Part shown: positions 14,147-30,736 of the stretch, piece by piece
Numbering within the stretch: the first letter of the stretch is position 1
Layout: every line of letters begins with the position of its first letter
Notes under the pieces: model-generated
Told to the model about the DNA's origin: nothing
The model's database searches: none
The model's input: the letters and a program-made list of their open reading frames with translations, nothing else
Made by a program: the position numbers and the translations under genes
NCBI RefSeq assembly: GCF_009765965.1
Contig: NZ_LMUL01000014.1
Location: 1-64,000, forward strand
Length of the DNA: 64,000 nt
Direction of reading: 5' to 3'
From: Caulobacter sp. S45
Lineage (GTDB): Bacteria > Pseudomonadota > Alphaproteobacteria > Caulobacterales > Caulobacteraceae

Positions 14147-15502
14147 TTAGTCCGACGCCATGCGCCGGCCGCCGAACCGGTCGCTTGCAAGCGGTCGGAG
14201 GATAAAGGCGGCGACCGCCCCCACCGACAGCGGCACGACCGGAGCCAGGAAAAGGTATCTAAGCGGAAGGTGCATGCCGAGCAGCTGGCCGCCAATCAGC
14301 GGGCCCAGAATCGCGCCGAAGCGCCCTACACCCAAAGCCCAACCCGCGCCGTTCGCTCGGATTTTGGTGGGATAGCTCAAGCCGGCGACCGCATTGAGCC
14401 CGAGTTGGTTGCCCAGGACGGTGAGCCCGACCAGAAACACCACGAACTTGAGCATCAGGGGCGAGTAGCCCGGCAGGCCCAGGATGGCCACGGCCGGGCA
14501 CGCCATCAGCATGAACACCCCCACCACGCCGAGACCGGCCCGGTCCAGGAACCGGCTGATCGTCAATCCGCCTAGAACGCCGCCGACATAGTACATTGAG
14601 GTGGTCACCGCGGCTTGCGATGCGGATAGGCCGGATTCGCGGAAGACGGTGGGCATCCAGCTGCTCAGGAAAAAATTCGCCATCAAGTTGGTGACAAACA
14701 GCATCCAGACCAGCGGAGTTATCCACCTCAGCTTGCCCTCGAACAGCTGGCTCGGCCGGAAGCGGCCCGACGCATCGACAGGGAAGATGAAATTGGTGTC
14801 GTCGGCGATCTGTGCATCGGGCCGCATCGCCCGCGCCAGGGCGACGATCTTGCCGCGAGCCGCCGCGCGGACCGCCAGAAATTTCAGCGACTCGGGCATG
14901 TAAAGCAGGTTCAGCAGGGCCGCGATGATAGGCATGACGCCGCCGACCAGGAATAGCGTCCGCCAGCCCGAGCCCGGCGCCACGACGGTTACAACCGCCG
15001 GAACCATTCCGCCGAAGGTTATGCCCATGAACATGAGGGTTATCAGCGTGGCGCGCGCTCGGCTCGGAGCGTATTCGGCCATCAGCGCGATGGTGTTCGC
15101 CGTCAGGCCGCCAAGCCCGATCCCGGTGAGGAAGCGCAGGAGGGCGAGCGCCCAGATCGTATTCGCGCCGGCCGACGAGAGCGTGAAGATCCCGCAAAGC
15201 GCGGCGCTGACCACGATGGCGATCCGACGGCCGAACCGGTCGCCGACATAGCCGAAGAGCGGGGCCCCGAAGAGCATGCCGAACAGGCTGGCGCTGAACA
15301 CCGGGGCCAGGATTTCACGCTTGAGGTGCCACGCCCGCACGATCCCTGGAGCGGCGTAGGCCGCTGCGGTCAAGTCGTACCCGTCGCCGATCTGCGCCGC
15401 GAAGCCGAGCAGGATGATCTTGACCAGGAACGGACTGATCCTCTGTCCGTCCACCAGGCTCGAAATGCTGATCTCGGGCCTGTCGCGTGACGGCCCGGTC
15501 AT
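14147..15502 (-). CDS. MFS aromatic-acid:H+ symporter (AAHS family)
   Basis: A 451-residue inner-membrane importer with about twelve hydrophobic segments. GDGYDLTAAAYAAPGI in the first helix is the DGxD-type motif of the AAHS family (PcaK, BenK), and the loop-2 motif GYVGDRFGRR is present. The start at 15502 is preferred because it forms a TGATG overlap with the class II aldolase stop. Transcription starts beyond the aldolase, near the 16320-16336 operator. It probably brings in the carboxylated aromatic handled by the neighbouring monooxygenase and decarboxylases. Confidence 0.88.
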   Translation of the reverse strand: MTGPSRDRPEISISSLVDGQRISPFLVKIILLGFAAQIGDGYDLTAAAYAAPGIVRAWHLKREILAPVFSASLFGMLFGAPLFGYVGDRFGRRIAIVVSAALCGIFTLSSAGANTIWALALLRFLTGIGLGGLTANTIALMAEYAPSRARATLITLMFMGITFGGMVPAVVTVVAPGSGWRTLFLVGGVMPIIAALLNLLYMPESLKFLAVRAAARGKIVALARAMRPDAQIADDTNFIFPVDASGRFRPSQLFEGKLRWITPLVWMLFVTNLMANFFLSSWMPTVFRESGLSASQAAVTTSMYYVGGVLGGLTISRFLDRAGLGVVGVFMLMACPAVAILGLPGYSPLMLKFVVFLVGLTVLGNQLGLNAVAGLSYPTKIRANGAGWALGVGRFGAILGPLIGGQLLGMHLPLRYLFLAPVVPLSVGAVAAFILRPLASDRFGGRRMASD

Positions 15503-16272
15503 CAGAGAACCCAATCCTGCGGCAGGACCCCACGTGCCCGGGCCCGGCCGACATAGTAGTTCCAGAGTTTGGGGACGTGCTTGTCCCGCTTCAGGTCCTG
15601 CAGGAATAGGGCGATCTCGGACTCGGTGAGCGGCCGCACGGCGCCTAGCAGGGAGGCGTCGTACATGGCTTCGGCGTTCTCGACGAAATGCACGCAGTCG
15701 ATCAGCAGGCCGGGGATATCCTCGGCGACCACGACCTGGCCGTGGGCGCGGATTAGGGCGGCGTGGTGAGGACCGAGCGTGCCCGCCAGCGCCCGTCCGC
15801 GTTCGGGCGTATTCAGATGGCTTGGATCCTCATGCACCGGAATGCCGGAAGCCCAGCGCACCGCGTGGTTCTTGATCGCGACCAGCTTCACGTCCTGGAC
15901 CAGGGTGAAGACGGTGGTGCGGTCGTGATGAAAATGCGCCGCCGAATTGACGTCGGGCCGGGCGCGCAGCAGTTCGCAATGCAGGAAGACCTCGGCTGGG
16001 GGGCGTTGGCCCGGCGGCCCCGACAGCATCTTGCCGTCCAGGTCGCATACCAGCAGCATTTCTGGCCGCAGTTCGGCGCGGCTCTGGTCGAACGACTGGA
16101 TCAGGAAGGTGTCGCCGCCCGGCAGGCGCGCGCTGACATGGCCGCTGTAGCCCAATATCTCCAAGTCGTTGAGCATCAGCGTGCAGGCCGCCACCTGTTG
16201 GCGTAGCCGCTGTTCGATCTCCGCCAACCTGTCGGCGTCGTTGACGCCCCGATGTTGCGCCGGATCCGGCAT
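15502..16272 (-). CDS. Class II aldolase/adducin-family protein, possible hydroxy-aromatic decarboxylase
   Basis: A 256-residue protein of the class II aldolase fold. Metal ligands are visible as AHFHH (His-x-His) and AHGQVV, with a PPAEVF Glu between the N-terminal region and these. Besides aldolases, the family contains decarboxylases such as 3,4-dihydroxyphthalate decarboxylase (PhtC). A second paralogue at 19017 and an amidohydrolase decarboxylase at 19795 make a decarboxylase role attractive. It is first in a two-gene unit with the AAHS importer and divergent from the IclR gene across a palindromic operator. Substrate and reaction are not proven. Confidence 0.75.
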   Translation of the reverse strand: MPDPAQHRGVNDADRLAEIEQRLRQQVAACTLMLNDLEILGYSGHVSARLPGGDTFLIQSFDQSRAELRPEMLLVCDLDGKMLSGPPGQRPPAEVFLHCELLRARPDVNSAAHFHHDRTTVFTLVQDVKLVAIKNHAVRWASGIPVHEDPSHLNTPERGRALAGTLGPHHAALIRAHGQVVVAEDIPGLLIDCVHFVENAEAMYDASLLGAVRPLTESEIALFLQDLKRDKHVPKLWNYYVGRARARGVLPQDWVL

Positions 16273-17336: not shown

Positions 17337-18953
17337 ATGAACACCCAAGTCATCATCGTCGGAGCGGGTCCGGTCGGACTGACGCTTGCTGTCGATCTCG
17401 GGCGACGTGGGGTCTGTTGCACGATCATTGAGCGCAAGCCCGAGCCTGAATTCCTGCCGAAGATGGAGCGTTGCAATGCGCGCACCATGGAGATGTTTCG
17501 CCGTATCGGTCTAGCGGACAAACTTCGGGCGGCCGGACTTGCTTCCCACGTGCCGATGGACGTCTTCGTCATCCTGTCGATGATCGAGCCGCCGCTGCTG
17601 CACCTGACCTACCCTTCGGTCGATGCGGCTCGGCGGGAGGGGCGCGAGGTGAACGATGGGACCATGCCGCTCGAACCCTACCAGCTGATCTCCCAGTACA
17701 CGGTGGAGCCGCTGCTCAAGGCCGAGGCCGAGCGCCTGCAGTCGGTCAGCGTCCGCTACGGCTGCGAATTCCAGGCGTTCTCGCAGGACCCGGCCGGGGT
17801 CACGGTGACCATGCGCACGGACGACGGCGGGACCGAGACGCTGCGGGGCCTTTACCTCGTCGGCTGCGACGGCGGCGGCAGCCCGGTGCGTCGGCAGCTC
17901 GGCATTCCCCTGCGTGGCGAGGGAAACATGCTGCAGCTTCGCCAGGCGCTGTTTCGCTGCGACACGCTCTACGATCGCCTGCCTTTGCAGGACGGCCCCG
18001 GACACGGGCGGCATTATCATGTCGCTGACAACCAGGCGACGTTCCTGATCATGCAGGATTCCACCCGGCACTGGACGCTTCACGCCGTCGTCGACAGCGA
18101 CGAGGCGATGAAGCCCCAGTTCGAGCGCACCATCGGCGCGCCGGTCGACTATGAGATGCTCTATTGCGGGGAGTGGCGGCAGAACCTGTTGCTGGCCGAC
18201 GCCTATCGCATGGATCGCGTGTTCCTGGCGGGCGACGCAGTCCACCTTGTGATCCCCACCGGCGGACTGGGCATGAACACCGGCGTTGGGGACGCGTTCG
18301 ACCTGTCCTGGAAGCTGGCGGCGACGCTCCAAGGCTGGGGCGGCCCCGGACTGCTCGATTCCTACGAGATCGAACGTCGGCAGGTCGGCGACCGCAATGT
18401 CGGCGCGTCGCGCTACGCCTCGATGGGGCGGCGCAAGTGGCGCTCGCAGTGGCGTCCGGAAATCCGCGACGCCACGGCGGCCGGCCAGGCCGCGCGGGAC
18501 CATCTGGCCGGCGTCGCCGATATCGAGCAGCGCAAGACCAACGAGATGATCGGGGCCGAGCTTGGCTACCGCTACGTCGACTCGCCGATCATCGACAACA
18601 TTCCCGGCGGACCGGAACATCTGTTCCGCGACTACCAGCCGACCACCTGGCCCGGCGCGCGCCTGCCCCACGTCTGGCTGGCGGACGGGACGCCGGTCCA
18701 GGACCATATCCCGACCGAGGGCTACACCCTGCTGCGCCTGCGCGGTGGCCACGACACCGGCGCGTTGGAAGCGGCGTTCCGTGCGCGAAATGTCCGCCTG
18801 ACGGTTCTGGACCTCGCCGACGACGTGGCGCGTTCGGTCTATGGCCGGGACCTGCTGCTGCTTCGCCCAGATATGCACGTCGTCTGGCGCAGCGATGCGC
18901 CTCCGGCAGACGCGACGGCCCTATGCGCGATCGCCACGGGGCATCGCGCCTAG
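17337..18953 (+). CDS. FAD-dependent aromatic hydroxylase (group A monooxygenase)
   Basis: A 538-residue flavoprotein monooxygenase of the phenol/3-hydroxyphenylpropionate hydroxylase class (MhpA, PheA, TfdB). The N-terminal dinucleotide motif GAGPVG is at residues 9-14. A DG motif reads LVGCDGGGSPVRR, and the GD motif reads FLAGDAV followed by GGLGMNTGVGDA. A C-terminal thioredoxin-like tail completes the length. It would hydroxylate a phenolic acid with NAD(P)H and oxygen. Two likely decarboxylases follow in the same operon, so hydroxylation of a carboxylated phenol before or after CO2 loss is a reasonable inference. Confidence 0.86.
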   Translation: MNTQVIIVGAGPVGLTLAVDLGRRGVCCTIIERKPEPEFLPKMERCNARTMEMFRRIGLADKLRAAGLASHVPMDVFVILSMIEPPLLHLTYPSVDAARREGREVNDGTMPLEPYQLISQYTVEPLLKAEAERLQSVSVRYGCEFQAFSQDPAGVTVTMRTDDGGTETLRGLYLVGCDGGGSPVRRQLGIPLRGEGNMLQLRQALFRCDTLYDRLPLQDGPGHGRHYHVADNQATFLIMQDSTRHWTLHAVVDSDEAMKPQFERTIGAPVDYEMLYCGEWRQNLLLADAYRMDRVFLAGDAVHLVIPTGGLGMNTGVGDAFDLSWKLAATLQGWGGPGLLDSYEIERRQVGDRNVGASRYASMGRRKWRSQWRPEIRDATAAGQAARDHLAGVADIEQRKTNEMIGAELGYRYVDSPIIDNIPGGPEHLFRDYQPTTWPGARLPHVWLADGTPVQDHIPTEGYTLLRLRGGHDTGALEAAFRARNVRLTVLDLADDVARSVYGRDLLLLRPDMHVVWRSDAPPADATALCAIATGHRA

Positions 18954-19016
18954 CGGACGGGAAGAGGACACGACTCCGGTCGAGCGGAGCGGACGATGTT
19001 GAGAGGAATCCAGGCC

Positions 19017-19763
19017 ATGCCGACCAATGCATTGGAAGCGATCATCGACGACATCGTGACCGCCAACCACATCCTGGCCCAGGAGGGCGTGGTCGACGCC
19101 TTCGGCCATGTCAGCGCCCGCCACCCAACCAATCCTGGACACTTCCTGTTGTCGCGCGCCCTGGCGCCGGAGCTGATCACCCACGACGATATCATCGAAT
19201 ACGAACTGGACGGTGCGCCGGTCCAGCCCGACGCCGCGAAGGGATATCTGGAGCGCTACATCCACGGTGCGCTCTACGAGGCGCGGCCGGAGGTCCAGTC
19301 GGTCATCCATAGTCACAGCCGCAGCGTCATCCCATTCAGCGTGACCAGCGAGCCGCTGCGCCCCATCGTCCACAGCTGCGCCACCATCGGCCGCCATGTT
19401 CCGGTCTGGGACGCGCAGGATTCGTTCGGCGACACCACCCTGCTGATCTCCAGCATGGCGATGGGACGCGACTTCGCCAAGGTGCTGGCGCAGAACAACA
19501 GCGCGCTGATGCGGGGGCACGGCTCCACGGTCATCGGTCGTTCGGTGCGCGAAGCCACCTATACCGCCGTCTACCTCGAGGTGAACGCCGGACTACAACT
19601 TCAGGCCACGCGCTTCCCGCCGGTCAAGTACCTGACCGACGGCGAGATCGACGCGATTTGCGGCCGCCTCGCCGACGCCAAGCCGGCGGAAGGCTACGAC
19701 CGGGCCTGGGCCTACTGGTGCCGCCGGGCGGGCATGGAGCCGACGCCGCGCTTCGTGGGCTGA
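19017..19763 (+). CDS. Class II aldolase/adducin-family protein (second copy)
   Basis: A 248-residue class II aldolase-fold protein with the metal ligands IHSHS and RGHGST and a YLERY Glu region. It belongs to the same broad family as the protein at 15502-16272, but the two are clearly diverged. Its neighbours are an aromatic hydroxylase before and a LigW-like decarboxylase after. This supports the decarboxylase branch of the family (PhtC-like) more than a sugar aldolase. An ATG at 18996 is an alternative start; 19017 is favoured because GAGAGGA lies about 10 bp before it. Confidence 0.72.
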   Translation: MPTNALEAIIDDIVTANHILAQEGVVDAFGHVSARHPTNPGHFLLSRALAPELITHDDIIEYELDGAPVQPDAAKGYLERYIHGALYEARPEVQSVIHSHSRSVIPFSVTSEPLRPIVHSCATIGRHVPVWDAQDSFGDTTLLISSMAMGRDFAKVLAQNNSALMRGHGSTVIGRSVREATYTAVYLEVNAGLQLQATRFPPVKYLTDGEIDAICGRLADAKPAEGYDRAWAYWCRRAGMEPTPRFVG

Positions 19764-19794: not shown

Positions 19795-20853
19795 ATGGAC
19801 CAGCCGAAAGCAGAGCGGCCGCCCAAGGCCGACTACGCCCGCATCGCTACCGAAGAAGCCTTCGCGCCCGCCGAGATGATGAACATCTGGCGCAAGATCC
19901 TCGAAGGCCCCGATCCCGATCCCGGCTTCGTCAGCCTGATCGGCTTCTACATGACCAGCCAGGCCGAACGGCCCCGCCACATCATGAATTGTCTCACAGA
20001 CCTGGGCGCCATGCGCCTACGGCACATGGAAGAGGCCGGTATCGACCGGCAAGTTATCGCGCTGACCTCGCCCGGCGTGCAGGTGATGGAGGCCGACTCG
20101 GCCGTCGATTTCGCCAAGGTCGCCAATGACGAGCTTGCCGAAGCGTGCCGCAATCACCCCACGAAATTTTCCGGCATGGTCGCGATCGCTCCGCAGAAGC
20201 CGGCCGAGGCGGCGAAGGAGATCGAGCGCGGGATCAAGCAACTCGGCCTCACCGGCGTGATCATCAATTCCCATACCCATGGCGAATACCTGTCGAACCC
20301 GAAATTCTGGGAGATATTCGAGGCGGCGGAGGCCAACGACACGCCGATCTATCTCCACCCCAACACTCCGCCACGCGACATGATCCGCCCCTTTCTGGAA
20401 GTGGGCCTGGATGGCGCGATCTTCGGTTTCGGGGTCGAGACCGGCCTGCACGCGCTGCGCCTGATAACCAGCGGGGTGTTCGATCGCTTCCCCAAGCTGC
20501 AGATCATCATCGGCCACATGGGCGAGGCGCTGCCGTTCTGGGCTTACCGGCTCGACTACATGCACGCGGCGACGGTGCGCTCGAACCGCTATGAGAGCAT
20601 GAAGCCGCTGAAGAAGAAGCCGAGCGAGTATCTGCGCGAGAACTTTCACATCACCAACAGCGGGGTGGCCTGGGAGCCGGCGATCAAGTTCACCCAAGAC
20701 GTGGTCGGGACCGACCGGGTGCTCTATGCGATGGACTATCCTTACCAGCACTCGATCGAGGAAGTTCACAGCCTGGATCGAATGCAGATGGCGCCGGAAG
20801 TGAAGAAAGCGTTCTTCCAAACCAATGCGGAAAAACTCTTCAAAATATCATGA
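19795..20853 (+). CDS. LigW-like aromatic decarboxylase (amidohydrolase superfamily)
   Basis: A 352-residue ACMSD/LigW-type decarboxylase. It resembles 5-carboxyvanillate decarboxylase over its full length: RIATEEAF with the metal-binding Glu near residue 20, LTSPGVQ, INSHTHG, YLHPNTPPRDM, GFGVETG, IIGHMGEALPFW, and the late AMDYPYQ Asp. The family removes a carboxylate ortho to a phenolic OH without oxidation, using Zn or Mn. The gamma-resorcylate and 2,3-dihydroxybenzoate decarboxylases are less similar alternatives. It ends the monooxygenase operon, and a purine-rich AAAAAAGAGGAG precedes its ATG. The exact substrate is open. Confidence 0.83.
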   Translation: MDQPKAERPPKADYARIATEEAFAPAEMMNIWRKILEGPDPDPGFVSLIGFYMTSQAERPRHIMNCLTDLGAMRLRHMEEAGIDRQVIALTSPGVQVMEADSAVDFAKVANDELAEACRNHPTKFSGMVAIAPQKPAEAAKEIERGIKQLGLTGVIINSHTHGEYLSNPKFWEIFEAAEANDTPIYLHPNTPPRDMIRPFLEVGLDGAIFGFGVETGLHALRLITSGVFDRFPKLQIIIGHMGEALPFWAYRLDYMHAATVRSNRYESMKPLKKKPSEYLRENFHITNSGVAWEPAIKFTQDVVGTDRVLYAMDYPYQHSIEEVHSLDRMQMAPEVKKAFFQTNAEKLFKIS

Positions 20854-20944: not shown

Positions 20945-22537
20945 TTAGGCCGATAGGCGGCCGGGTGGGGAAGGGGGCGTTGAGCCGAACAGGAGCGACT
21001 TGACCGTAACCGGCACGGTTCTCGACGGCAACCGGATGCGGCCAAGATCGACATGGTCGAAATCGCCCAGTCTGACGCCGTCGATCACCAGCACCTCTAT
21101 GGGTATGTCGAGTTCGTCTTTCAGGATAGCGCCCAGGCTGGCGGCGGCGTCGCCTTCGAGCATGAGATAGAGCGGGGCGCCCGCCGCGATGCGGTCGTCG
21201 AGCCCCGCCGCGATCCCCCGCGCAAGGGCGTGGAGGCGGCGGTGGCTCGGTGCTCCGGACCAGCGAAGCGCCAGGGCCAGGTCCTGGCCGACGAGGGGCG
21301 CCAGGGCGCGGCGGCCGCGGATCGCCGTCGCCAGCGCGACCGGATCGATTTCGCCAGACAAATCCACGGCTGGACGGAGCACGGGCAGGTTTCTGCGCGG
21401 CAGGAGTTTCGCGTGCGATGAGATGTAGATGGTGTCGCCGCTCATCTGCACGCAATAGCGGGATGCGCCGAGCACGGTCGCCCGGATACGCTCGCTCGGC
21501 TCGAGCAGGGGAGCGAACGCGGCCTCGTCCAGCGCCCGGCGCAAGGCGATCCCCAGCGCCGGGCCTAGATCGCCGAAGTCGCGCCGCTCCCGTCGGTAGA
21601 CATATTCCGCGACGCCGCCGGAGATCATGATCCCGTCCACGCCCGACGTCCCCACGAGCGGATCGGTCAGCATGGTTGTCGCGGCGGCCTCCGTGAGCGA
21701 GGCGGCGCCGACCGCAGCCATGATCGCCTGGACGACCAGCGCCGCCATCGCCGTGGCCACCGCAGCGCGGCCGCTCGGTGGGACGGTGTCGCCGTGCGCC
21801 CACGTGAAACCGGCGCGCGCGGCGTGCCTGGCCCCCGCCGGTTCGAGTCGTGTGAGCCTATCCTCCCGATCGACGGCGAGCAGTCGACCGCCCACCGCCA
21901 TCGCGGCGGTGGCGAGCACCTCGCCGCGCTCCACCAGGGCCAACTTGGTGGTCGCTCCACCGATGTCGACCAGCAGCAGGCGCCGACCGCCGTCCTCCCG
22001 TGACGCCCGGACAGCGCCCGATCCGAAGGCCGCGAGCATCGCCTCCATGTGGTCGCCGGCGGCGATGCAGACGAGATCGCCCACCGCCTGCGACAGGCGC
22101 GCACCGATCGCCGCCGCGTTCGTCCGCCCGCTCGCCGCGCCGGTCAGGATCACCGCGCCGGTATCGACCTCGTCGGGGCTGAAGCCGGCTTCGCGAAACA
22201 CCCGCTCGACGATCCGCCATAGCGCTTCTTCGTCGATCAGGTCGTTGTCGCGGAAGGGGGTCGCCATGATCGGCGAGGCATAGAGCGCCACCGGCTCGGC
22301 ATCATCTCGGCGGGCGCCATGAACGCTCAACCGCGAAAGCACCGCCTGGGTGCTCGACGAACCGATGTCGAGTCCCAGGCTGATCAGCGTGGCGTCCCCG
22401 GCCTCCCCACCGGCCCCAGCGAAATCCTCGTCGTGATCATGGTCGTGATCATGGTCGTGATCGTGATCTTCGTGCGAATGGTCGAACAAGGCGCCGAGCG
22501 CATGATCGGCCAAGCTATGGCGCCTATCGTCAGTCAC
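20945..22537 (-). CDS. eutA: EutA-like reactivating factor (orphan, no EutBC nearby)
   Basis: A 530-residue ASKHA-fold protein that resembles EutA, the ATPase that removes damaged cobalamin from ethanolamine ammonia-lyase. It has the phosphate-binding LGLDIGSSSTQ, the second LLVDIGGATTKLAL motif, GGVAEYVYRR, ATVLGAS, and the hallmark C-terminus VPVTVKSLLFG. It is longer than typical EutA (about 470 residues). The excess is an N-terminal His/Asp-rich tract (about 20-36) that could bind metal. Ethanolamine ammonia-lyase is not in the window. It sits instead last in a Bug-cupin-cupin operon under IclR control, so its partner enzyme is unknown. Confidence 0.85.
   Translation of the reverse strand: MTDDRRHSLADHALGALFDHSHEDHDHDHDHDHDHDEDFAGAGGEAGDATLISLGLDIGSSSTQAVLSRLSVHGARRDDAEPVALYASPIMATPFRDNDLIDEEALWRIVERVFREAGFSPDEVDTGAVILTGAASGRTNAAAIGARLSQAVGDLVCIAAGDHMEAMLAAFGSGAVRASREDGGRRLLLVDIGGATTKLALVERGEVLATAAMAVGGRLLAVDREDRLTRLEPAGARHAARAGFTWAHGDTVPPSGRAAVATAMAALVVQAIMAAVGAASLTEAAATTMLTDPLVGTSGVDGIMISGGVAEYVYRRERRDFGDLGPALGIALRRALDEAAFAPLLEPSERIRATVLGASRYCVQMSGDTIYISSHAKLLPRRNLPVLRPAVDLSGEIDPVALATAIRGRRALAPLVGQDLALALRWSGAPSHRRLHALARGIAAGLDDRIAAGAPLYLMLEGDAAASLGAILKDELDIPIEVLVIDGVRLGDFDHVDLGRIRLPSRTVPVTVKSLLFGSTPPSPPGRLSA
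22431..22466. repeat. 12-bp tandem repeat encoding a His-Asp tract
   Basis: Two exact units of tcgtgatcatgg plus a third, partly diverged unit lie inside the EutA-like gene near its 5' end. On the coding strand they give alternating His and Asp. Such tracts can change length by slippage, so the number of His-Asp pairs may vary between strains. Confidence 0.85.
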
Positions 22538-22566
22538 CGGACGCGTTCCGCACTTCGACAGCTCCG

Positions 22567-23178
22567 TTAAGAGACCGCCGCCTTGCCCCGCATGTACTGA
22601 CGCACGACTTCCTCGGTCAGCACCACGTTCGGATCGTATTCCGGCGCATCCTCCATCTGCTCGAGCGTGTTCAGCCCCATCTGCCTGAAGATCCGCGCCG
22701 TCGACGAAATGAGCCGCACGGGGCGCTCAGGGTTGGCGTTGAAGTGCTGATGGATGGTGTTCGGCGGAATGTAGATGTAATCACCCGCCTCCCAGTCGAA
22801 GCGCTGGGTCTCTTCCTGCGGCGTCCAGATGAACTGATCGGTGATCTCGACGTCGCAATCCTGATGGATATCGTAGCCCGCACCTTCCAGGACGTAGATG
22901 CATTCCTCCGCCAAATGTCGGTGCTTGCCCGAGCGGGAGCCGGGGGGGATGAGCTGCATGTAGACGTCGACCGTCTCGATGCGGGTGTTCATCTGCTCGT
23001 TGATCAGATGCTTGAGCAGTCCTTGGCGCGACATCTCCCAGGGCATTTCGTCCGGACGCACCACCTTCTTGCGCCGGGCGTTGCGCACGGGAGCGTCCGT
23101 CGCCTCGTCCAGCAGGTTCTGGTAGAGCTTTTCGTTGCCGCCGCCGCGAAGCCAAGCCGTACTTTCTTCCCAAGCCAT
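22567..23178 (-). CDS. Single-domain cupin protein B
   Basis: A 203-residue protein with one cupin barrel (about 70-165). Likely metal ligands are His86, His88, Glu92 (KHRHLAEE) and a later His in IHQHFN. A helical N-terminal arm of about 65 residues precedes it. Its start overlaps the stop of cupin A (TGATG), so the two are coupled and may form a complex; both share the HQHFNA motif. It might be a dioxygenase, isomerase or binding protein, and nothing in the sequence decides. The EutA-like gene follows after 29 bp. Confidence 0.75.
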   Translation of the reverse strand: MAWEESTAWLRGGGNEKLYQNLLDEATDAPVRNARRKKVVRPDEMPWEMSRQGLLKHLINEQMNTRIETVDVYMQLIPPGSRSGKHRHLAEECIYVLEGAGYDIHQDCDVEITDQFIWTPQEETQRFDWEAGDYIYIPPNTIHQHFNANPERPVRLISSTARIFRQMGLNTLEQMEDAPEYDPNVVLTEEVVRQYMRGKAAVS

Positions 23179-23819
23179 CAGTAGCCCCCCTCAGGATGGT
23201 TGAAGTCGAGTTCTTCCTCGCGCACGTCGAAACCCATGCTTTCGGGGGTTTCGTCGGTCACGCGGGCCTTGACCTGCTTTTGAAACAGCATGTTGAGGAA
23301 GAGGTAGAGCGGCTTGGTCTTGATCACCAGGCAACGCGCCGGCTTGGTCTTGGACGCGTTGAAGTGCTGGTGGACGCAGTTGTTGTGGACGATGGCCACG
23401 TCGCCCGCCTTCCAGTCGTAGCGTACGCCGTCGTGGATTTCGTAACCCTCGCCGTCGAGGATGTAGAAGGCCGCCTCGTTCACATGCCCGTGCTTCTGGG
23501 AATAGCCGCCCGGGGCGTACTCTTCCAGGTGCATATGGAAGGTCTGGGTGATGCCGTCCTTGGGCTCCACATAGTGGCGGCTATAGGCCTGCGGTCCATC
23601 GACGAACTTGATCTCCGATCCCTTGAGCACGCGCGGACTGGAGCGCAGGCGCGTTAGTTCCTTCTTGACGTCGTATTCACCTTCGAAGCCGCGAACGAAG
23701 ACGCGATCCTTCTTGGAGTGATAGAGGTTGGCGACCTTTTCCTCGGTCGTCAGCGCATCGGAGTTGTGGCCGATGGGGGGCGGTGGCGCGCCGTGCGCGT
23801 CGTTTGGATCGTCTGCCAT
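23178..23819 (-). CDS. Single-domain cupin protein A
   Basis: A 213-residue protein with a cupin barrel at about 90-175. Ligand candidates are His110, His112, Glu115 (QKHGHVNE) and the VHQHFNA His pair. The ATG at 23819 follows GAGAGGA; a longer TTG start at 23843 would add eight residues and has no good ribosome site. It lies 43 bp downstream of the Bug lipoprotein gene and overlaps cupin B by one base. It shares its fold and the HQHFNA signature with cupin B, so the pair probably arose by duplication. Its function is unknown. Confidence 0.75.
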   Translation of the reverse strand: MADDPNDAHGAPPPPIGHNSDALTTEEKVANLYHSKKDRVFVRGFEGEYDVKKELTRLRSSPRVLKGSEIKFVDGPQAYSRHYVEPKDGITQTFHMHLEEYAPGGYSQKHGHVNEAAFYILDGEGYEIHDGVRYDWKAGDVAIVHNNCVHQHFNASKTKPARCLVIKTKPLYLFLNMLFQKQVKARVTDETPESMGFDVREEELDFNHPEGGY

Positions 23820-23862
23820 GATCTTCCTCTCGTTACGGCGCAAGCGACGGGCGCGCCTGGGG

Positions 23863-24813
23863 TCACGCGACGGCGAGCTGGTTCTTCCAGCGGGTGACGA
23901 ACTGGGCCTGGTTCTGCAGGATGCGCATCGTCCCGGCCGGATCGTCCGGAGTCAGGTTGGCGTGGTTGCGCGCGGCCCATTCGACCACCGAAGGCTGGCG
24001 GAGCGCGCTGATGAAGGCCTTGGAGAGCCGCTCGATGATCGGGGCGGGCATCCCCGGCGGTCCTGCGATCGGCCGAAACTGCGCGATGTCGACTAGGTCC
24101 GGCAGGCCGAGCGTGGTCGCGTCCGGCACGCCCGGCAGGCTTCCGGTCTTTTCGAACGTGCAGAGCACCCGCACCGCCTTGGCCTTCAGGTAGGAGTTGA
24201 CCGAAGCCAGCGATGCGATCGCGGCGTCGCCGTCGCCCCGCACAGCCGCAACGATATAGTCGTTGGTGCCCTTGTAGCCCGTGATGATCTGACTGCGCAC
24301 GCCCAGCAGCCGGGCGCCGATCTTGGTCGCGGAATAGGCGGTGCCCGCCGCACCGACGCAGGTGAACTTGACCGGCCGCTGATGGCCGAGGGCGCGCAGG
24401 TGGTCGACGCTGTGGATCGCGGACGTGGCGGGGACCAGGAGCGCATAGGCGTCGCGTCCCATATTGGCGATCCAGCTGAGCTTCTGCAGATCGAAGTCCA
24501 GGCCGCCCTGTTCTCTTAGGATCATGGCCCCCGGGATGTTGACGATCGAGATGATCGAGCCGTCCGGCTTGGCGCGATGGATTTCCTGCGCCGCCTGCGC
24601 GCCGCCCGCTCCATCGACGTTTTGGGGGATGACCAGTGCGCCAAGGCTCTTCTGCAACGCCGGGATCACCGCGCGGACGTAGGAGTCGAAACCCCCGCCA
24701 GGCGCGTAGGGAATGATGAATGTCACATCCGGGTTGGACGACCTGCCTGGTGCACAGGCGGAAAGCAGAGCCGTGGAGCCGTACGCCAGGAAGCGCCGCC
24801 TTTCCGCCTTCAC
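23863..24813 (-). CDS. Bug/TctC-type substrate-binding lipoprotein
   Basis: A 316-residue periplasmic binding protein of the tripartite tricarboxylate transporter type. An N-terminal signal with an LLSAC lipobox (Cys20) makes it a lipoprotein. The characteristic FIIPYAPGGGFD loop and the VDGAGGAQAAQ region are present. TctA and TctB membrane subunits are not encoded in the window, so it would need a partner elsewhere or act as a sensor. It opens the cupin-cupin-EutA operon. The start is a GTG. The gap before it holds a perfect IclR-type operator. The ligand is probably a carboxylate. Confidence 0.85.
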   Translation of the reverse strand: MKAERRRFLAYGSTALLSACAPGRSSNPDVTFIIPYAPGGGFDSYVRAVIPALQKSLGALVIPQNVDGAGGAQAAQEIHRAKPDGSIISIVNIPGAMILREQGGLDFDLQKLSWIANMGRDAYALLVPATSAIHSVDHLRALGHQRPVKFTCVGAAGTAYSATKIGARLLGVRSQIITGYKGTNDYIVAAVRGDGDAAIASLASVNSYLKAKAVRVLCTFEKTGSLPGVPDATTLGLPDLVDIAQFRPIAGPPGMPAPIIERLSKAFISALRQPSVVEWAARNHANLTPDDPAGTMRILQNQAQFVTRWKNQLAVA

Positions 24814-24971: not shown

Positions 24972-25766
24972 GTGGAAAATGATCCGACGCCACGCGCCGT
25001 CGAGCATCAGAAGAAGGCCAATCGCGTCGAGGCCGTCGAGCGCGCCCTGTCGCTGCTGCAATGCTTCCGCGCGCAAGGCGAAGGATTGAGCCTCGCCCAA
25101 CTCGCCCAGCGCTCAGCGTTGTCGAAGGCCACCATCCTGCGGCTGTGCGGTTCGCTCATCCGGAAAGGTTTCCTACATCGCGACGGCCGTGGAATTTTCG
25201 TGCTCGGCCGCGAGTTGCAGCGGCTCGGGCATCTCAGCCGCGCCGATATCGGGCTAGCCGATCTCATCCGGCCGGTGCTGCGGGATTTGGCGGAAAGCGC
25301 CGAAGAGACGTCTTCCTTCTACGTTCAGGACGGAGAGATGCGGCTCTGCCTGTTCCGCCACAATTCTCCGCGATCCGCGCGCCACCACCTTGAGGAGGGT
25401 TCGCGGCACCCGCTGGATCGCGGCGCCGCGGGCGTCCTGCTCAGCGCCTTCGGCGGAGCGGAAGGATCGGAAGCCGAACAAGCGAGAAAGCATGGATGGG
25501 TGATTTCGATCGGCAGCCGCAACGCCGAGCTTGCGGCGGTCGCGGTTCCGCTGGTGAACATGGACGGTCACGTGCTCGGTGCATTGACCGTATCCGGGCT
25601 GATTGGGCGCTTCACGACGGAGAAGATCGAGCGGAGTCGTATCGCGCTGCTCAACGCCGCGAGCGCGCTAAGGCCTCAGCTGCCGCTGCACCTCGACGGA
25701 GGGATCTTGGAGCCGGGCGCCTTCCATCACCGCCCGGGCCGGGACCAAGGTCGGGCGACATCATAG
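24972..25766 (+). CDS. IclR-family transcriptional regulator
   Basis: A 264-residue regulator. The helix-turn-helix (about 17-75) contains LSLAQLAQRSALSKATILRL, and the effector domain follows to the end with VPLVNMDGHVLGALTVSG. The start is a GTG at 24972 behind GAGGGG. It is divergent from the Bug-cupin-EutA operon, with a palindromic operator between them, and its 3' end overlaps the next SDR gene by 6 bp in convergent orientation. It most likely controls the Bug-cupin-EutA unit in response to a small acid. Confidence 0.87.
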   Translation: MENDPTPRAVEHQKKANRVEAVERALSLLQCFRAQGEGLSLAQLAQRSALSKATILRLCGSLIRKGFLHRDGRGIFVLGRELQRLGHLSRADIGLADLIRPVLRDLAESAEETSSFYVQDGEMRLCLFRHNSPRSARHHLEEGSRHPLDRGAAGVLLSAFGGAEGSEAEQARKHGWVISIGSRNAELAAVAVPLVNMDGHVLGALTVSGLIGRFTTEKIERSRIALLNAASALRPQLPLHLDGGILEPGAFHHRPGRDQGRATS

Positions 25767-26603
25767 GATGCTTCTGCCGCCGTCCATGACGATGTTCTGC
25801 CCGGTCATGTAGCTGGAGGCGGGGGAACACAGGAACTGGACCGCCGAGCGGTATTCGGCGACGTCCGCCATCCGGCCCATGGGGATCAGATTGGTTAGCC
25901 GATCCAGGAACTCGGGAGGATGGTTGTTGAACACCCCGCCGGGGGACAGGGCGTTCACCCGCACGCCGCGGTCGGCCCAATAGCTCGCCAGGTAGCGCGT
26001 CAGGCCGACCAGGCCGGATTTGATGACGGAGTAGGTGACGGGCTTGACCGGCTGGTCGCCCGGCGCGACTCCGGCCTTTCGATACAGCCGCTGATCCGGG
26101 GCGATGACCGACAGGTCGGAGGCTATATTGAGGATCACGCCGTCGCCCCGCTCCGCCATTCGGCTGCCAAAGATCCGGGAGCATAGAAAGGCGCCGGTGA
26201 GCCCGATGCGAATCTGGTCGTCCCAGGCCTGCAGCGGCATGTGCTCCAGCCGGCTGAGCTCCAGGCCGCCACCATCCGCCGACACCTTGGGGTCGATCGC
26301 CGCATTGTTCACCAGGATGTCGATCCTGTCGTGACGCTCCGCTAACCGAAGGAGCGAGGTCTCCGAGGCGACGTCCAGCACGTCGAGGTGAATCTGACCG
26401 GGAAACTGGGCGATCAGATCGGCACAGGCCGCCTGGAGCCTGTCCGGATCGATGTCCGTCGCCAGGACCGTTGCTCCGGCTTCCGCCAGGGCATGGGCGT
26501 GCTGCGGTCCCAGCAGGCCGGCTGCGCCCGTGACCAGGGCTGTCCGTCCGGACAGACTGTAGGCCGTGCTGCCGCTTGGGGTCGCCGCTGGGGGCATGAT
26601 CAT
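25761..26603 (-). CDS. Short-chain dehydrogenase/reductase (SDR 1 of the coupled operon)
   Basis: A 280-residue NAD(P)-dependent SDR. The cofactor motif reads TGAAGLLG, NNAA follows strand 4, and the catalytic Tyr-x3-Lys is YSVIK. The C-terminal YMTGQNIVMDGG is typical of classical SDRs. The start at 26603 forms an ATGA overlap with the SDR upstream; the longer open frame is a shadow of that gene. It is the last gene of a five-gene coupled operon. Substrates of this class are sugars, polyols or hydroxy acids, and the TIM-barrel isomerase and TPP enzyme in the operon favour a carbohydrate-like compound. Confidence 0.88.
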   Translation of the reverse strand: MIMPPAATPSGSTAYSLSGRTALVTGAAGLLGPQHAHALAEAGATVLATDIDPDRLQAACADLIAQFPGQIHLDVLDVASETSLLRLAERHDRIDILVNNAAIDPKVSADGGGLELSRLEHMPLQAWDDQIRIGLTGAFLCSRIFGSRMAERGDGVILNIASDLSVIAPDQRLYRKAGVAPGDQPVKPVTYSVIKSGLVGLTRYLASYWADRGVRVNALSPGGVFNNHPPEFLDRLTNLIPMGRMADVAEYRSAVQFLCSPASSYMTGQNIVMDGGRSIL

Positions 26604-27355
26604 GTCCTCGTCTGGCCGCCGTCGACCACCAGGACAGAGCCGGTGATGAAGGCTGCGCGGTCCGATAGCAGGAAGGCGGTCGCGTCGGCGACGTCCTGCG
26701 GCGCGCCGAACCGCCGCAAGGGCACCTCGCGGTCCAGCATGTTCCGGACGCCCTCTGGGTCGGCCCGTCGCTTGGCGTCCCATGTCCCGCCGTCGAACAG
26801 GATGTTCCCCGGCGCCACGCCGTTGATCCGGACACCGTCTCGCGCGAAGGGGCGCGACAAGCCGAGGACGGCTGCGTCGAGCGCCGCCTTGGCCGCGGAA
26901 TAGGCCACCGGCGCCCCCAGCGCCTCGCGACCGCAGATCGAGGATATGCAGACAATCGAGCCCGCGCTGTCTCGCGTCATCAAGGGACGCAAGGCGCAGA
27001 TCAGGTTCATGGCGCTGAACAGGTTCAAATCCAGGACACGCCGCCACTCGTCGGGCGTTTCCTGCCCTGGAGGGACCGAGGCCCCGGACCCGGCGTTGGT
27101 GACCAGCAGGTCGAGGCGTCCGAACCGCTGCCCGACCTGAGCCGCCAGGTCCTGGCAGGCGGCTTCCTCGCGCAGGTCCAGGCTGTAGGCGACCGCGCCG
27201 TCCAGTTCTCCGGCCGCGCGGTCCAGTTCCTCCTTGCCCCGGGCTGTCAGGATCAGTCGGCACCCCTCGGCATGCAGGCGCCGTGCGATGGCCAGACCGA
27301 TGCCGCGACTGGCGCCCCCGACCAGGGCGATCTTTCCTGCCAGATCGAGGTTCAT
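26600..27355 (-). CDS. Short-chain dehydrogenase/reductase (SDR 2)
   Basis: A 251-residue classical SDR with the cofactor loop GGASRGIG, an NAGSG segment and the catalytic YSAAK. It overlaps both neighbours by 4 bp (ATGA), so production of the whole set is probably coupled. Paired SDRs in one operon often oxidise and then reduce different carbons of one sugar or polyol. No residue pattern that fixes the substrate was recognised. Confidence 0.87.
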   Translation of the reverse strand: MNLDLAGKIALVGGASRGIGLAIARRLHAEGCRLILTARGKEELDRAAGELDGAVAYSLDLREEAACQDLAAQVGQRFGRLDLLVTNAGSGASVPPGQETPDEWRRVLDLNLFSAMNLICALRPLMTRDSAGSIVCISSICGREALGAPVAYSAAKAALDAAVLGLSRPFARDGVRINGVAPGNILFDGGTWDAKRRADPEGVRNMLDREVPLRRFGAPQDVADATAFLLSDRAAFITGSVLVVDGGQTRT

Positions 27356-28197
27356 GCCTGGGCGATCCAGTCGAGCACCGCCCGGCGGTAGCGGGCGGCG
27401 GCGCCTGGGTGATCGCCATCGGCCGCGCGGGCGGTCTGCAGGATGAAGTGACCGCTGTAGCCGACCGATTTCAACAGTGTGAACACGCCGGGCAGGTCCG
27501 CATTGCCTTCGCCCAGGGGCACGGTCGTTCCGTTCAGCAGCCGGTCCTTGACGTGGACGTTGAGCATCCGGTTGGCGATCAGGGGAATCTCCACCTCGGG
27601 CGGCCAGCCCATGCCGGCGCTGTTGCCGATGTCGAAATTGATCCCGAAGCGGTCGTGCGGAAACCGGGCGATGAAGGCCGTCAGCTCGTTCGGTGGGAAG
27701 TCGGACTCGAAAGCCACCCTGACGCCGAGTTCAGTCAGTCGCGGCGTCAGATCGACCAGCCCGTCCATCAGGGACGCCTCATCGGCGGGGTTCTGGATCG
27801 CGCCGTTGTCCACCAGCGGGACGACCACGAGGTGCGCCCCCACCGCCTGGGCGCCGGCGACGACATCGGCGAACTCATCGAGCAGGGCCTGCCGCGCCGC
27901 GCCGTGCGCCTTCCAGAACGGAGCCTGCATGAAGCAGTCCCCGGTGATCGAGCTGACCGTCACACCGCTGTCGCGCGCCAGGTCCTGGATCAAAGCCTGC
28001 CCAGGAGCCGTCATCAGTGGATTGTCCGCCAACCCGTCATGATCCAGCGTCCATTCCATCCGGGCGAACCCAAGGCTCCGGGCGATCGGAAACTCGGCCT
28101 GCCAGTGGGCCGCGGGAAAGGCCTGGATCTTGCCGTCGACCAGGGGCGACAAGCGGCCCTGCATGAAGCCGACCCGATGGTTGAAATCGGTCATCAA
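27352..28197 (-). CDS. Sugar-phosphate isomerase/epimerase-like TIM-barrel protein
   Basis: A 281-residue AP-endonuclease-2-type TIM barrel, the fold of xylose isomerase-like epimerases, hydroxypyruvate isomerase and IolE. Metal-site residues are suggested by FESDFP (Glu), FDIGNS (Asp) and NVHVKDR (His). The last position, usually Glu, reads Gln in FILQTARA. It is coupled by 4-bp overlaps to an SDR on each side. It would isomerise or epimerise a keto-sugar made by one of the SDRs. An inosose dehydratase role cannot be excluded. Confidence 0.8.
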   Translation of the reverse strand: MMTDFNHRVGFMQGRLSPLVDGKIQAFPAAHWQAEFPIARSLGFARMEWTLDHDGLADNPLMTAPGQALIQDLARDSGVTVSSITGDCFMQAPFWKAHGAARQALLDEFADVVAGAQAVGAHLVVVPLVDNGAIQNPADEASLMDGLVDLTPRLTELGVRVAFESDFPPNELTAFIARFPHDRFGINFDIGNSAGMGWPPEVEIPLIANRMLNVHVKDRLLNGTTVPLGEGNADLPGVFTLLKSVGYSGHFILQTARAADGDHPGAAARYRRAVLDWIAQA

Positions 28198-28964
28198 AGC
28201 CCCTTCGCCGTCCAGCCGCCGTCGATGACCAGATCCTGTCCGGTCATGTAACGCGAGGCGTCGCTGGCCAGGAAGACGGCCGCGCCCACCAGATCGTCAA
28301 CCACACCCCAACGCCCCAGGCAGGTACGGTCGGCGCGCTGTTGGCGCTGGATCGGATCGGAATAGCTTTTCGCGGTCATCGCCGTCTGGATGTAGCCGGG
28401 GGCCAGGGCGTTGACCCGGACGCCCCTGGGCCCGAGGTCCACCGCCAGGGACTTGGTCAAGAACCGCAGACCGCCCTTGGCCGCCCCATAGCCCGGATTC
28501 CCCGGAAAGCCGGCATGGGCGCCGATGCTGGTCACATTGATGATGGCGCCGCCATCGCGCATGACCCGTGACGCCGCCAGGCAGTTGGCGTAGGCGGCGC
28601 GTAGATTGACCCCGATGGTCTGGTCGAACCTGTCCATCGCCGAATCCGGCCGCTCGGGGTCCTCGGGCAGGGTGACGCCTGCGGCATTGATCAGGATGTC
28701 GAGCCGGCCATGCTCCGCCACGATGGCGGCCAGGACGTCGTCCAGGCCCAGCGCGACGTTGGCCGCCAGATAACCAACCGGCTGGCTGAAGGGATGGTCC
28801 GGGTTCGCGGATCGCGCCACGGCGACAACGACTGCTCCCGCCGCCGCCAGGCCGTCGGCGAGGGCGTGACCGATCCCGCGCGATCCGCCGGTGACCAGCG
28901 CGACCTTGCCGTCCAGTGAAAACAGGCTGGCCAGGCCTTGGGGCGAGCGGACCCCGTTCACCAC
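28194..28964 (-). CDS. Short-chain dehydrogenase/reductase (SDR 3)
   Basis: A 256-residue classical SDR: TGGSRGIG cofactor loop, INAAG, catalytic YGAAK, and the YMTGQDLVIDGGW C-terminus. It begins 7 bp inside the 3' end of the TPP-enzyme gene and ends in a 4-bp overlap with the TIM-barrel gene. It resembles gluconate 5-dehydrogenase and other sugar-acid SDRs in general layout only. Confidence 0.87.
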   Translation of the reverse strand: MVNGVRSPQGLASLFSLDGKVALVTGGSRGIGHALADGLAAAGAVVVAVARSANPDHPFSQPVGYLAANVALGLDDVLAAIVAEHGRLDILINAAGVTLPEDPERPDSAMDRFDQTIGVNLRAAYANCLAASRVMRDGGAIINVTSIGAHAGFPGNPGYGAAKGGLRFLTKSLAVDLGPRGVRVNALAPGYIQTAMTAKSYSDPIQRQQRADRTCLGRWGVVDDLVGAAVFLASDASRYMTGQDLVIDGGWTAKGL

Positions 28965-30736
28965 TGAAGTTCGGCCAGCGAGGTGGAGGACAGCTTGCCA
29001 TCCTGCCCGATGATGGTGCGAACGGTCGGTCCCCGGGGTTCCGACTTGTCGACGATCAGGTCGACGATGAGCGGCGGGGCCTCGGCGTCAAAGCCCTCGA
29101 GCGCTGCATCCAGCTGCGCCAAGCTCTCGATGCGGCGATAGCCGAGACGGAAGGCCGCCGCGATCTCGGCATAGTCGGGGATGAACACACCCGACGCCCT
29201 GTCCGCCCCGCCGGTGGCGCCGAAGTGCCGTTCCTGCGACGCCTTGATGGACAGATAGCCGTCGTTGTTCAGGACGAACAGCACGAAGCCCTTGGGTCCG
29301 TAGTGGGCCAGGGTCGCCAGTTCCTGAAGGTTGAGCATCAACCCGCCGTCGCCCTCGACGCACATGACCGGGCGCGCCTGGGCGAAGGCGGCGCCGATGG
29401 CATGCGGCAGACCCAGGCCCATAGCCCCCAAGGAGGCGCCGAAGAAGCACCGGGCGCCGGCGCGCGGAGCGAAGAAGCGGATGAAGGTCTCGATGCCCGC
29501 GCCCGATCCGGTCGGCACGAACACCTTGCCGGCGGACCATTTCGATAGGGCGCCCGCGACGCCGAAAACGTTCATGGCGCCGGTCGCGAGCCGCAGCTGT
29601 TCCTGCGCCAGATAGGTGGCTGCCTGCTCGCGGCACCATTGTAGCCAGGGGGTGGTCCTGGCCTTGTCCTGGGGCGCCGCCAGGCCGTCGATCGCAGACG
29701 GCAGGGCGCAGAGGTTGACTTCAAGCGTCGTCACGCGGGCGAGATGGGCGAACTTGGCCAGTTCAGCCGGGTCGACATCGACGATCCACCGTTCGGCCTG
29801 CGCGCCGAAGTCGTCCCGCTGGAACGCGGTGGTGCCCAGGTCCAGGCGTGCGCCGAGGAAGACGATCCTGTCGGCCTTGTAGAGAATGCTGTTGGCGGAC
29901 ATAGGCGCTAGGCCGCCCGGAGCGCCGAAGTTGAGCGGGTGTTCGGCAGGGACGGCGTCGGCGGCCGGCCACGACGTCACCAAGGGGATGGCGCGCGTCT
30001 CGGCGAAGGCGACGACCGCTTCGGCCGCTCCCGCAATCCGACAGCCGGCGCCGACATAGATCAGCGGCCGCTCGCCGCCTTGCAGCCAGCCCAGCGCGTC
30101 CGCAAGCGCGGCGGCGTCGGTGGGGGACCGGCTGGCGGCGATCCGGCTGCGGATATCGGCGAGCGCGTCGCGCACGGTCGCCTGATCGAAGGCCAGCGGG
30201 ACATTCTGGACATCCAGCGGGATCTCGATGAACACCGGCCCAGGACGCCCGCTGAACGCCAGCGCCAGAGCCGTATTGAGTTCGGCCATGGCCCCTTGAG
30301 CCGTCAGCTGGACGAAATGCTTGACGCAGGGCTGGATGAGATCGCGGGAGCGGACCTCCTGCGCCCCATGGGTGCGCGTCCCGTGGCGATCGATGTCGGC
30401 CGTCTTCACCTGCCCGGCGAGAACGACGATGGGGCTGGAGTCGCCAAAGGCGGAACACAGGCTGGTCACGGCGTTGGTCACGCCCGGCCCCGCCGTCACC
30501 ACGGCAAGGCCAGGCGCTGTGAACCCGGCGGCCTTGGCGTAGCCGTCGGCGGCCGCCACGCAGGCCTGTTCGTGCTGGCAGTAGACCGCCTTCAGTCCCG
30601 GGGTCGTTTCCACGGCCCGGTTTAGATACATCGCCATGCCGCCCGTCAGGCTGAAGGCGGTGCGAGCGCCCAAGGCGCATACGAGCTCGACCGAGAAACC
30701 GGCGATCGTCTGTAGGTTCGTCGGCGGTGACGACAT
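28958..30736 (-). CDS. Thiamine-diphosphate-dependent enzyme (acetolactate synthase-like)
   Basis: A 592-residue ThDP enzyme with the three-domain layout of acetolactate synthase and benzoylformate decarboxylase. Glu56 in YCQHEQ is the conserved proton relay. The ThDP/Mg motif reads EGDGGLMLN, with about 30 residues to NNDGY. It is first in the coupled operon. Catabolic ThDP enzymes such as IolD and ThDP enzymes of unusual-sugar synthesis are both found with SDRs and TIM-barrel epimerases, so breakdown and synthesis are both open. It would cleave or join a 2-keto compound next to the carbonyl. Confidence 0.83.
   Translation of the reverse strand: MSSPPTNLQTIAGFSVELVCALGARTAFSLTGGMAMYLNRAVETTPGLKAVYCQHEQACVAAADGYAKAAGFTAPGLAVVTAGPGVTNAVTSLCSAFGDSSPIVVLAGQVKTADIDRHGTRTHGAQEVRSRDLIQPCVKHFVQLTAQGAMAELNTALALAFSGRPGPVFIEIPLDVQNVPLAFDQATVRDALADIRSRIAASRSPTDAAALADALGWLQGGERPLIYVGAGCRIAGAAEAVVAFAETRAIPLVTSWPAADAVPAEHPLNFGAPGGLAPMSANSILYKADRIVFLGARLDLGTTAFQRDDFGAQAERWIVDVDPAELAKFAHLARVTTLEVNLCALPSAIDGLAAPQDKARTTPWLQWCREQAATYLAQEQLRLATGAMNVFGVAGALSKWSAGKVFVPTGSGAGIETFIRFFAPRAGARCFFGASLGAMGLGLPHAIGAAFAQARPVMCVEGDGGLMLNLQELATLAHYGPKGFVLFVLNNDGYLSIKASQERHFGATGGADRASGVFIPDYAEIAAAFRLGYRRIESLAQLDAALEGFDAEAPPLIVDLIVDKSEPRGPTVRTIIGQDGKLSSTSLAELQW

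Follow-up and report, generated by a model that had tools for sequence, protein, structure and literature searches.

What would a reactivase of the EutA family be doing in an operon of cupin genes? This question is raised by a stretch of 64,000 nucleotides of Caulobacter sp. S45 (contig NZ_LMUL01000014.1, positions 1 to 64,000; hereafter the window), in which an operon at 20945-24813 ends with a gene for a EutA-like protein. Known reactivases of the EutA lineage use adenosine triphosphate (ATP) to pry a B12 enzyme open, whereupon the damaged cofactor is exchanged. The initial annotation of this DNA had described the protein as an orphan EutA, possibly attached either to metal-dependent cupins or to a radical or B12 enzyme encoded elsewhere. 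Our results showed that the EutA-like gene is inherited and arranged together with cupin genes. As to function, we propose that the protein would be an ATP-driven metal-loading or reactivation helper of cupin enzymes, with nickel as the leading candidate metal, and not a helper of ethanolamine ammonia-lyase; we consider this proposal evenly poised between right and wrong.

The operon and its EutA-like protein

The operon lies on the minus strand and begins with a Bug/TctC-type solute receptor of 316 residues (23863-24813; Pfam TctC, 3e-26; lipobox-like LLSAC), followed by two single-domain cupins, c14 (221 residues, 23178-23843; Pfam Cupin_2, 1.6e-14) with a 3-His motif and c13 (203 residues, 22567-23178; Pfam Cupin_2, 4.6e-13) with a 3-His-plus-Glu motif, and then by the 530-residue EutA-like protein (20945-22537). 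An IclR-type regulator is encoded divergently on the plus strand (24972-25766; Pfam HTH_IclR and IclR_C); its nearest NCBIfam group is PcaR/PcaU, with a score under the cut-off. Open reading frames and Pfam matches placed all of these genes where the initial annotation had put them, and its remark that the cupins are coupled and have HQHFNA in common was borne out, the c14 and c13 genes overlapping by one base (TGATG). The start codon of the EutA-like gene lies 29 bases past the stop of c13. The Bug receptor accompanies these genes often but not always: its cluster was present in 27 of 96 sources, the window counted. No close relative of c13 was seen in plasmid records, where none of the best 14 matches reached 80% coverage.

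The EutA-like protein covers positions 2-474 of the 475 in the Pfam EutA profile (5.2e-93) behind a His/Asp-rich N-terminal tail. In an alignment of nine sequences, four cupin-associated and five classical-type, 49 residues were invariant, among them those of the ASKHA phosphate and adenosine motifs (D57, G59, D191, G193, G194, T196, G307 and G308), which are intact in the window protein. A predicted model (mean predicted local distance difference test score, pLDDT, of 85, with residues 1-44 below 50) matched actin-fold ATPases, and the large subunit of the diol dehydratase-reactivating factor (2d0o) had the actin-like core in common with it (Z 15.5, root-mean-square deviation (rmsd) 4.6, 250 residues aligned). 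This factor, which exchanges damaged cofactor in an ATP-driven manner, nevertheless stands only at row 50 of the fold matches, many actin-fold proteins scoring equal or higher, and its own client is a B12 enzyme; a sequence search of solved structures found no EutA structure. Sequence and model together identify the window protein as a full-length EutA-family member with the actin fold and a predicted ATPase activity.

The likeness to classical EutA (PF06277) extends to the full-length family match, the common invariant residues and the nucleotide motifs. The window protein differs in having cupin neighbours and no detectable EutBC, and in missing every curated NCBIfam EutA equivalog cut-off (243.4 of 598, 192.3 of 769, 183.8 of 952 and 149.3 of 799 bits). 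In addition, the residue after DIGGGTT is Lys in the four cupin-associated proteins and Asn in the five classical-type ones, and the window clade is further set apart by the His tails described below.

Partnership with cupin genes across genomes

The distribution of the genes was determined in 289 genomes of the same class as Caulobacter sp. S45 (the class sample), which were searched for EutA, EutB, NicO, NikR and a two-domain cupin of about 400 residues, hereafter the bicupin, the last by alignment search at E up to 1e-20. The bicupin was found in 7 of the 289 genomes and EutA in the same seven, while 282 had neither. Six of the EutA genes were full-length; in the seventh genome (G226) the gene is broken off by the end of the contig some 90 bases past the bicupin, and just an N-terminal piece is left. 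The probability of this co-occurrence by chance is 3.2e-14 with genomes treated as independent, and the seven genomes fall in four families. Neither gene was present in two further genomes (G063 and G278) that belong to the same family as the window. The bicupin matches of G122 and G226 were each reported with one internal stop codon; the gene in G122 is open over 370 codons, and its match extends beyond the gene end. As a gene partnership, the suggestion that a reactivase is attached to metal-dependent cupins thus received strong support.

The partnership was also seen in gene arrangement. The class sample has 17 full-length EutA genes. Of these, 12 had a bicupin no more than two genes away, three were accompanied by single-domain cupins (the window, L033 and L038), and two had no adjacent cupin (L032:6573 and L041). 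Caulobacter sp. S45 itself carries four full-length EutA genes, one in the window and three on contig C2, and two of the latter adjoin two-domain cupins, so that the description as an orphan has to be corrected. Another variant of the system was observed at L033:8703-12204 and L038:7576-11781, where the EutA-like gene adjoins genes for a UbiD-type decarboxylase and a small cupin of a single domain, at L038 with a NicO gene in between.

Beyond the class, a scan of public genomes with a EutA alignment gave at least 80 related loci, which form a biased set because similarity to the window protein determined their ranking, and whose genes, in GC-rich loci, were called by a simple script that can miss some. 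The 80 loci came from alpha-, beta- and gammaproteobacteria, Actinomycetota and a few others. A partner cupin was recognized by profile in 61 of the 80, and in 33 of the 40 that had at least 4 kilobases (kb) on both sides, 26 of these within 3 kb. The EutA-like genes without an adjacent partner cupin, among those inspected, were those of L067, L073, L081, L083, L097, L102, L112 and L041 and the one at L032:6573. Immediately after such a gene, at L083:9720-11531, comes one for a carbamoyltransferase that weakly matches HypF.

A quick maximum-likelihood tree of 116 EutA proteins, which has long branches and, according to the tool's own warning, possibly some false joins, split 110 non-classical proteins, most of them from cupin loci, from six classical-type ones with support 100 and a branch length of 0.85. 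Five of the classical-type six lie beside EutBC and one (L140) is unannotated. A clade of six (support 100), nested within one of 83, contains the window protein. The order c14-c13-EutA recurred in all five checkable members of the six-member clade, the c14 of L113 being truncated by the contig end and L094 beginning at EutA; the gene order is therefore not unique to this strain, as the initial annotation had asked of a real system. Outside the six-member clade the bicupin is the usual partner, so that which kind of cupin accompanies EutA depends on the EutA branch. At other loci c13 and c14 were also found paired in the company of bicupins, for example L059, L074 and L111.

These data bear on two other explanations. 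One holds that, like classical EutA, the EutA-like protein repairs a cobalamin enzyme whose gene lies elsewhere. Its membership of the EutA family would fit this, but the cupin-type proteins form a clade apart from classical EutA, and the expected clients were missing. Neither EutB, sought by profile, nor EutC was found in the Caulobacter sp. S45 genome, and neither was found in any of the seven EutA genomes of the class sample; the large subunit of diol dehydratase was not found in EutA-bearing genomes by a weak search in which no positive control responded, and other B12 enzymes lay outside the search. Moreover, EutB was present in 23 and full-length EutA in 6 of the 289 genomes with zero overlap. 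Service to a B12 enzyme elsewhere, the second possibility raised by the initial annotation, gained no support from these searches, and we consider it highly improbable. Classical ethanolamine use was rejected as a candidate, EutB and EutC not having been found. As for the genomes with EutB, full-length EutA was present in 0 of the 23, and therefore their ammonia-lyase seems to work without this reactivase.

The other explanation is hitch-hiking, in which EutA-like and cupin genes merely share catabolic islands and have no joint function. The surroundings are indeed catabolic islands, and many neighbours differ between loci. A Rieske oxygenase of the LigXa_C type was present in 17 of the 80 related loci, and other frequent neighbours were IclR regulators, a 2Fe-2S reductase, TctC/TctA, alpha/beta hydrolases and an ATP-binding cassette importer (solute-binding protein, double permease and ATPase); these neighbours point to aromatic-acid catabolism. 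Hitch-hiking is hard to reconcile, however, with a co-occurrence of 7 of 7 against 0 of 282, with adjacency across Proteobacteria, Actinomycetota and others, or with a partner type that changes with the EutA subclade, and there is very little chance that it is correct.

A third explanation takes the EutA-like protein to be no repair factor at all, but an ATP-using enzyme subunit in a complex with the cupins, comparable to ATP-driven subunits with this fold that serve as activators or hydrolases. A subunit would account for strict co-occurrence no less well than a chaperone, the structural neighbours of the EutA-like model include a 2-hydroxyacyl-CoA dehydratase activator and a benzoyl-CoA reductase subunit, and the protein has weak matches to BcrAD_BadFG and Hydantoinase_A (31.3 and 20.1 bits), both below cut-off. 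EutA is nonetheless the best match by far at 312.9 bits, and in some genomes EutA genes are fewer than bicupins (G113 has two full-length EutA genes and six bicupin matches among the six candidates scored), and therefore a shared helper suits better than a subunit. We consider the subunit explanation unlikely.

Metal sites, histidine tails and nickel genes

If the EutA-like protein is a helper of cupins, the metal sites of the cupins become of interest. The metal motif of c13 (H86, H88, E92 and H143) was invariant in 15 aligned rows and that of c14 (H118, H120 and H158) in 13. In the bicupin, the C-terminal half keeps three His (H258, H260 and H317) that were invariant in 28 rows, while the first motif of the N-terminal half lacks HxH in 28 of 28 rows; the second motif of that half reads HQHF in 20 of the 28, the window bicupin not being among them. 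The bicupin of the window (10912-12132, plus strand; 488 bits to the bicupin profile) gave a predicted model with a mean pLDDT of 82, for which VIA-align ranked salicylate 1,2-dioxygenase (2phd) first (Z 20.7, rmsd 3.4, 253 aligned, 15% identity), followed by gentisate 1,2-dioxygenase (3bu7; Z 20.6, rmsd 3.5, 261 aligned, 13% identity), with oxalate decarboxylase close behind (Z 19.0). Plain Foldseek returned mostly oxalate decarboxylases and seed globulins, an oxalate decarboxylase-type protein ranking first, and a sequence search of solved structures with the cupins gave weak matches only, the best being gentisate dioxygenase 3bu7 at 3.7e-7. None of ten bicupin relatives reached the cut-offs of the curated gentisate and salicylate families (TIGR02272 and NF049978), and the window bicupin had no NCBIfam match. 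The salicylate and gentisate dioxygenases are thus the nearest folds, yet at low identity, and salicylate dioxygenase has its metal in the N-terminal half whereas the complete His triad of the bicupin is in the C-terminal half. The 3-His-plus-Glu motif of c13 is likewise found in the quercetin dioxygenase QueD and in acireductone dioxygenase, which can use nickel; neither turned up when the window cupins were matched to curated families, and we know of no dedicated ATPase partner for either enzyme.

A pointer to a metal in the EutA-like protein itself is its His-rich tail. The N-terminal tail of the window protein has 10 His. At least four His in the 60 residues before the core were present in 77 of the 83 proteins of the larger window clade, in 2 of 27 other non-classical proteins and in 0 of 6 classical-type ones, a count in which some upstream residues may precede the true start codon; at least seven His in the 60 residues after the core were present in 48 of 83, 0 of 27 and 0 of 6, respectively. 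At several loci (for example L057, L061, L062, L065, L069 and L121) tailed and untailed EutA-like paralogs lie on opposite strands with a bicupin near, and the two EutA types may act together.

Nickel was suggested by the genes near EutA. On contig C2 of Caulobacter sp. S45 a NicO-family nickel/cobalt transporter lies between two EutA-bicupin units, and in G210 the only NicO match of the genome directly follows EutA. In Phyllobacterium (L136) the genes for bicupin, EutA, HoxN and NikR stand in a row, with a Rieske oxygenase near; between hoxN and nikR lies a near-consensus NikR site, and no other site in the 1.71 Mb of searched sequence had as few as one mismatch; at L096 a weak site (two mismatches) lies upstream of nikR. 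NicO, HoxN or NikR was present in 12 of the 80 related loci, CobW in 6 and either in 14, and the two CobW proteins inspected have long His stretches. At the genome level, a NicO match was found in 7 of 7 EutA genomes versus 98 of 289 overall (p 4.5e-4, kinship ignored), and in the six genomes with full-length EutA, NicO lay within 5 kb of EutA twice versus 0.10 expected (p 0.0045). In three of these six (G104, G113 and G210) neither urease nor NiFe hydrogenase was detected.

Taken as a sequence of steps, our proposal is that cupin-type EutA proteins would use a nucleotide-driven conformational change to pry a cupin oligomer open, that in the opened oligomer the active-site metal could be loaded or replaced, and that the His-rich tails would hold the metal (nickel as leading candidate, with cobalt or iron possible) and then hand it over to the cupin. 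The cupins, a single-domain pair in the window and a bicupin resembling salicylate and gentisate dioxygenases elsewhere, would act in an aromatic-acid pathway as oxygenases or related enzymes. From the comparisons above we infer cupin binding, use of ATP, transfer of a metal, nickel as that metal and an aromatic acid as the substrate. In its fullest form, which we put forward tentatively and as falling short of probable, a B12-reactivase lineage would have been converted to an ATP-driven factor dedicated to inserting a metal (nickel) into cupin oxygenases or to reactivating them, equipped in part with its own NicO or HoxN uptake, NikR and His tails, and serving a widespread nickel-cupin route for aromatic acids.

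Several observations weigh against nickel or against so close a tie. Outside the His-tailed clade, 25 of the 27 non-classical proteins are without tails, and many of them lie beside bicupins. Besides nickel, His tails bind zinc, cobalt or copper; NicO proteins are also able to carry cobalt, and 3-His cupins are often iron enzymes. No NikR site was found near nikR in L059, L111, L114 or L125, four Burkholderiales loci, and none was seen at EutA or cupin promoters in the searched sequence; the predicted Phyllobacterium site would control, if anything, hoxN-nikR. Of the 14 loci positive for nickel genes or CobW, 11 are betaproteobacterial, and with the other cases added we arrive at about seven independent ones. 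NicO is close by for only 2 of the 17 EutA genes of the class sample, NikR occurs in 12 of the 289 genomes and in only one of the seven with EutA, and the profiles used detected no nickel gene in the 64-kb window. Among the well-flanked related loci, 7 of 40 are without a profile-matched partner cupin, although one of these (L102) has another two-domain cupin. Finally, the second NicO of Caulobacter sp. S45, on contig C19 (L139:7350-15876), is near proton-antiporter-type subunits and, at a distance of 6 kb, a NiFe-hydrogenase-like large subunit with a weak NiFe-hydrogenase match and CSLC and DPCVSC motifs, which we read as a group-4 type hydrogenase large subunit and thus as likely another nickel enzyme with a NicO of its own; urease was not found in this genome.

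These points lead to the remaining explanation, a reactivase without nickel, in which the EutA-like ATPase would reset oxidised or metal-depleted iron cupin dioxygenases by exchange of subunit or metal and the nickel genes would serve something else. It accounts equally for the co-occurrence with cupins, it agrees with the 3-His sites and with the nearest folds, salicylate and gentisate dioxygenases being iron enzymes, and it accommodates the untailed EutA-like paralogs beside bicupins. It leaves unexplained the conserved His tails and the NicO, HoxN, NikR and CobW genes beside some loci, and we hold it possible but doubtful. For the proposed metal-loading helper, close known parallels include the nucleotide-using metallochaperones HypB and the CobW/UreG group, which it resembles in combining nucleotide use with a His-rich tail and, at some loci, a place beside nickel transporter or NikR genes; it differs in belonging to another fold family and in having a cupin, rather than a hydrogenase or urease, as its proposed client, and its metal binding is a prediction.

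No description of a EutA-cupin system was found in the open literature searched, subscription papers and preprints lying outside that search; the papers retrieved concerned, among other subjects, ethanolamine microcompartments, compatible solutes, nano-compartments, metalation and pig colon microbes. In the part of PMC4334477 available, the EutA of Ruegeria is annotated as an ectoine-utilisation protein, and the available part of PMC10949508 names EutA only in a reference title. Genes called 'ethanolamine ammonia-lyase reactivating factor EutA' beside cupins, as in Phyllobacterium, probably carry the wrong name and belong to an enzyme system not described so far, one that Actinomycetota and several classes of Proteobacteria were seen to possess. 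By what means a metalloenzyme comes by its correct metal is a long-standing question, metal-delivery systems being estimated to aid 30% of metalloenzymes in the portion of a review available (PMC4192464), and the question could be tested directly on a chaperone that is encoded next to the cupin it serves. If nickel is indeed the metal, a possible nickel requirement would be added to aerobic aromatic breakdown.

Pathway context in the window

Several further genes of the window provide pathway context. The bicupin and the Rieske oxygenase lie outside the range covered by the initial annotation, which had also made no mention of the His/Asp-rich tail of the EutA-like protein or of the three EutA-like genes on contig C2. 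Upstream of the bicupin on the plus strand are a ferredoxin reductase of the type found in Rieske systems (6924-8333; best NCBIfam match AndAa at 420 bits, the cut-off of 650 not being reached) and a Rieske oxygenase of the LigXa_C type that recurs at related loci (8361-9647; 820 bits to the cluster c7 profile, with Pfam support). An aromatic-acid/H+ symport-type transporter of the major facilitator superfamily is encoded on the minus strand (14147-15514; TIGR00895, 318.5 bits, under the cut-off of 418.55). Between it and the EutA-like gene, the plus strand carries an aromatic-hydroxylase-type protein that binds flavin adenine dinucleotide (FAD) by its family (17337-18953; Pfam FAD_binding_3, and above the NCBIfam PRK06126 subfamily cut-off), a class II aldolase-type protein of cluster c28 (18996-19763; Pfam Aldolase_II) that recurs in L047, L049, L052 and L074, and an amidohydrolase-2 of cluster c39 (19795-20853; Pfam, 5.2e-39) that recurs in L049 and L119. 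The proposed aromatic-acid pathway would include the Bug receptor, the Rieske oxygenase, the FAD hydroxylase, the aldolase and the amidohydrolase; L049 has the window's Bug cluster as well as its amidohydrolase and aldolase clusters. On the other side of the operon, at 26600-30736 on the minus strand, a scan identified a xylose-isomerase-like barrel protein, flanked by what appeared by eye to be short-chain dehydrogenases and a thiamine-diphosphate enzyme, and this region is possibly a separate sugar or cyclitol route.

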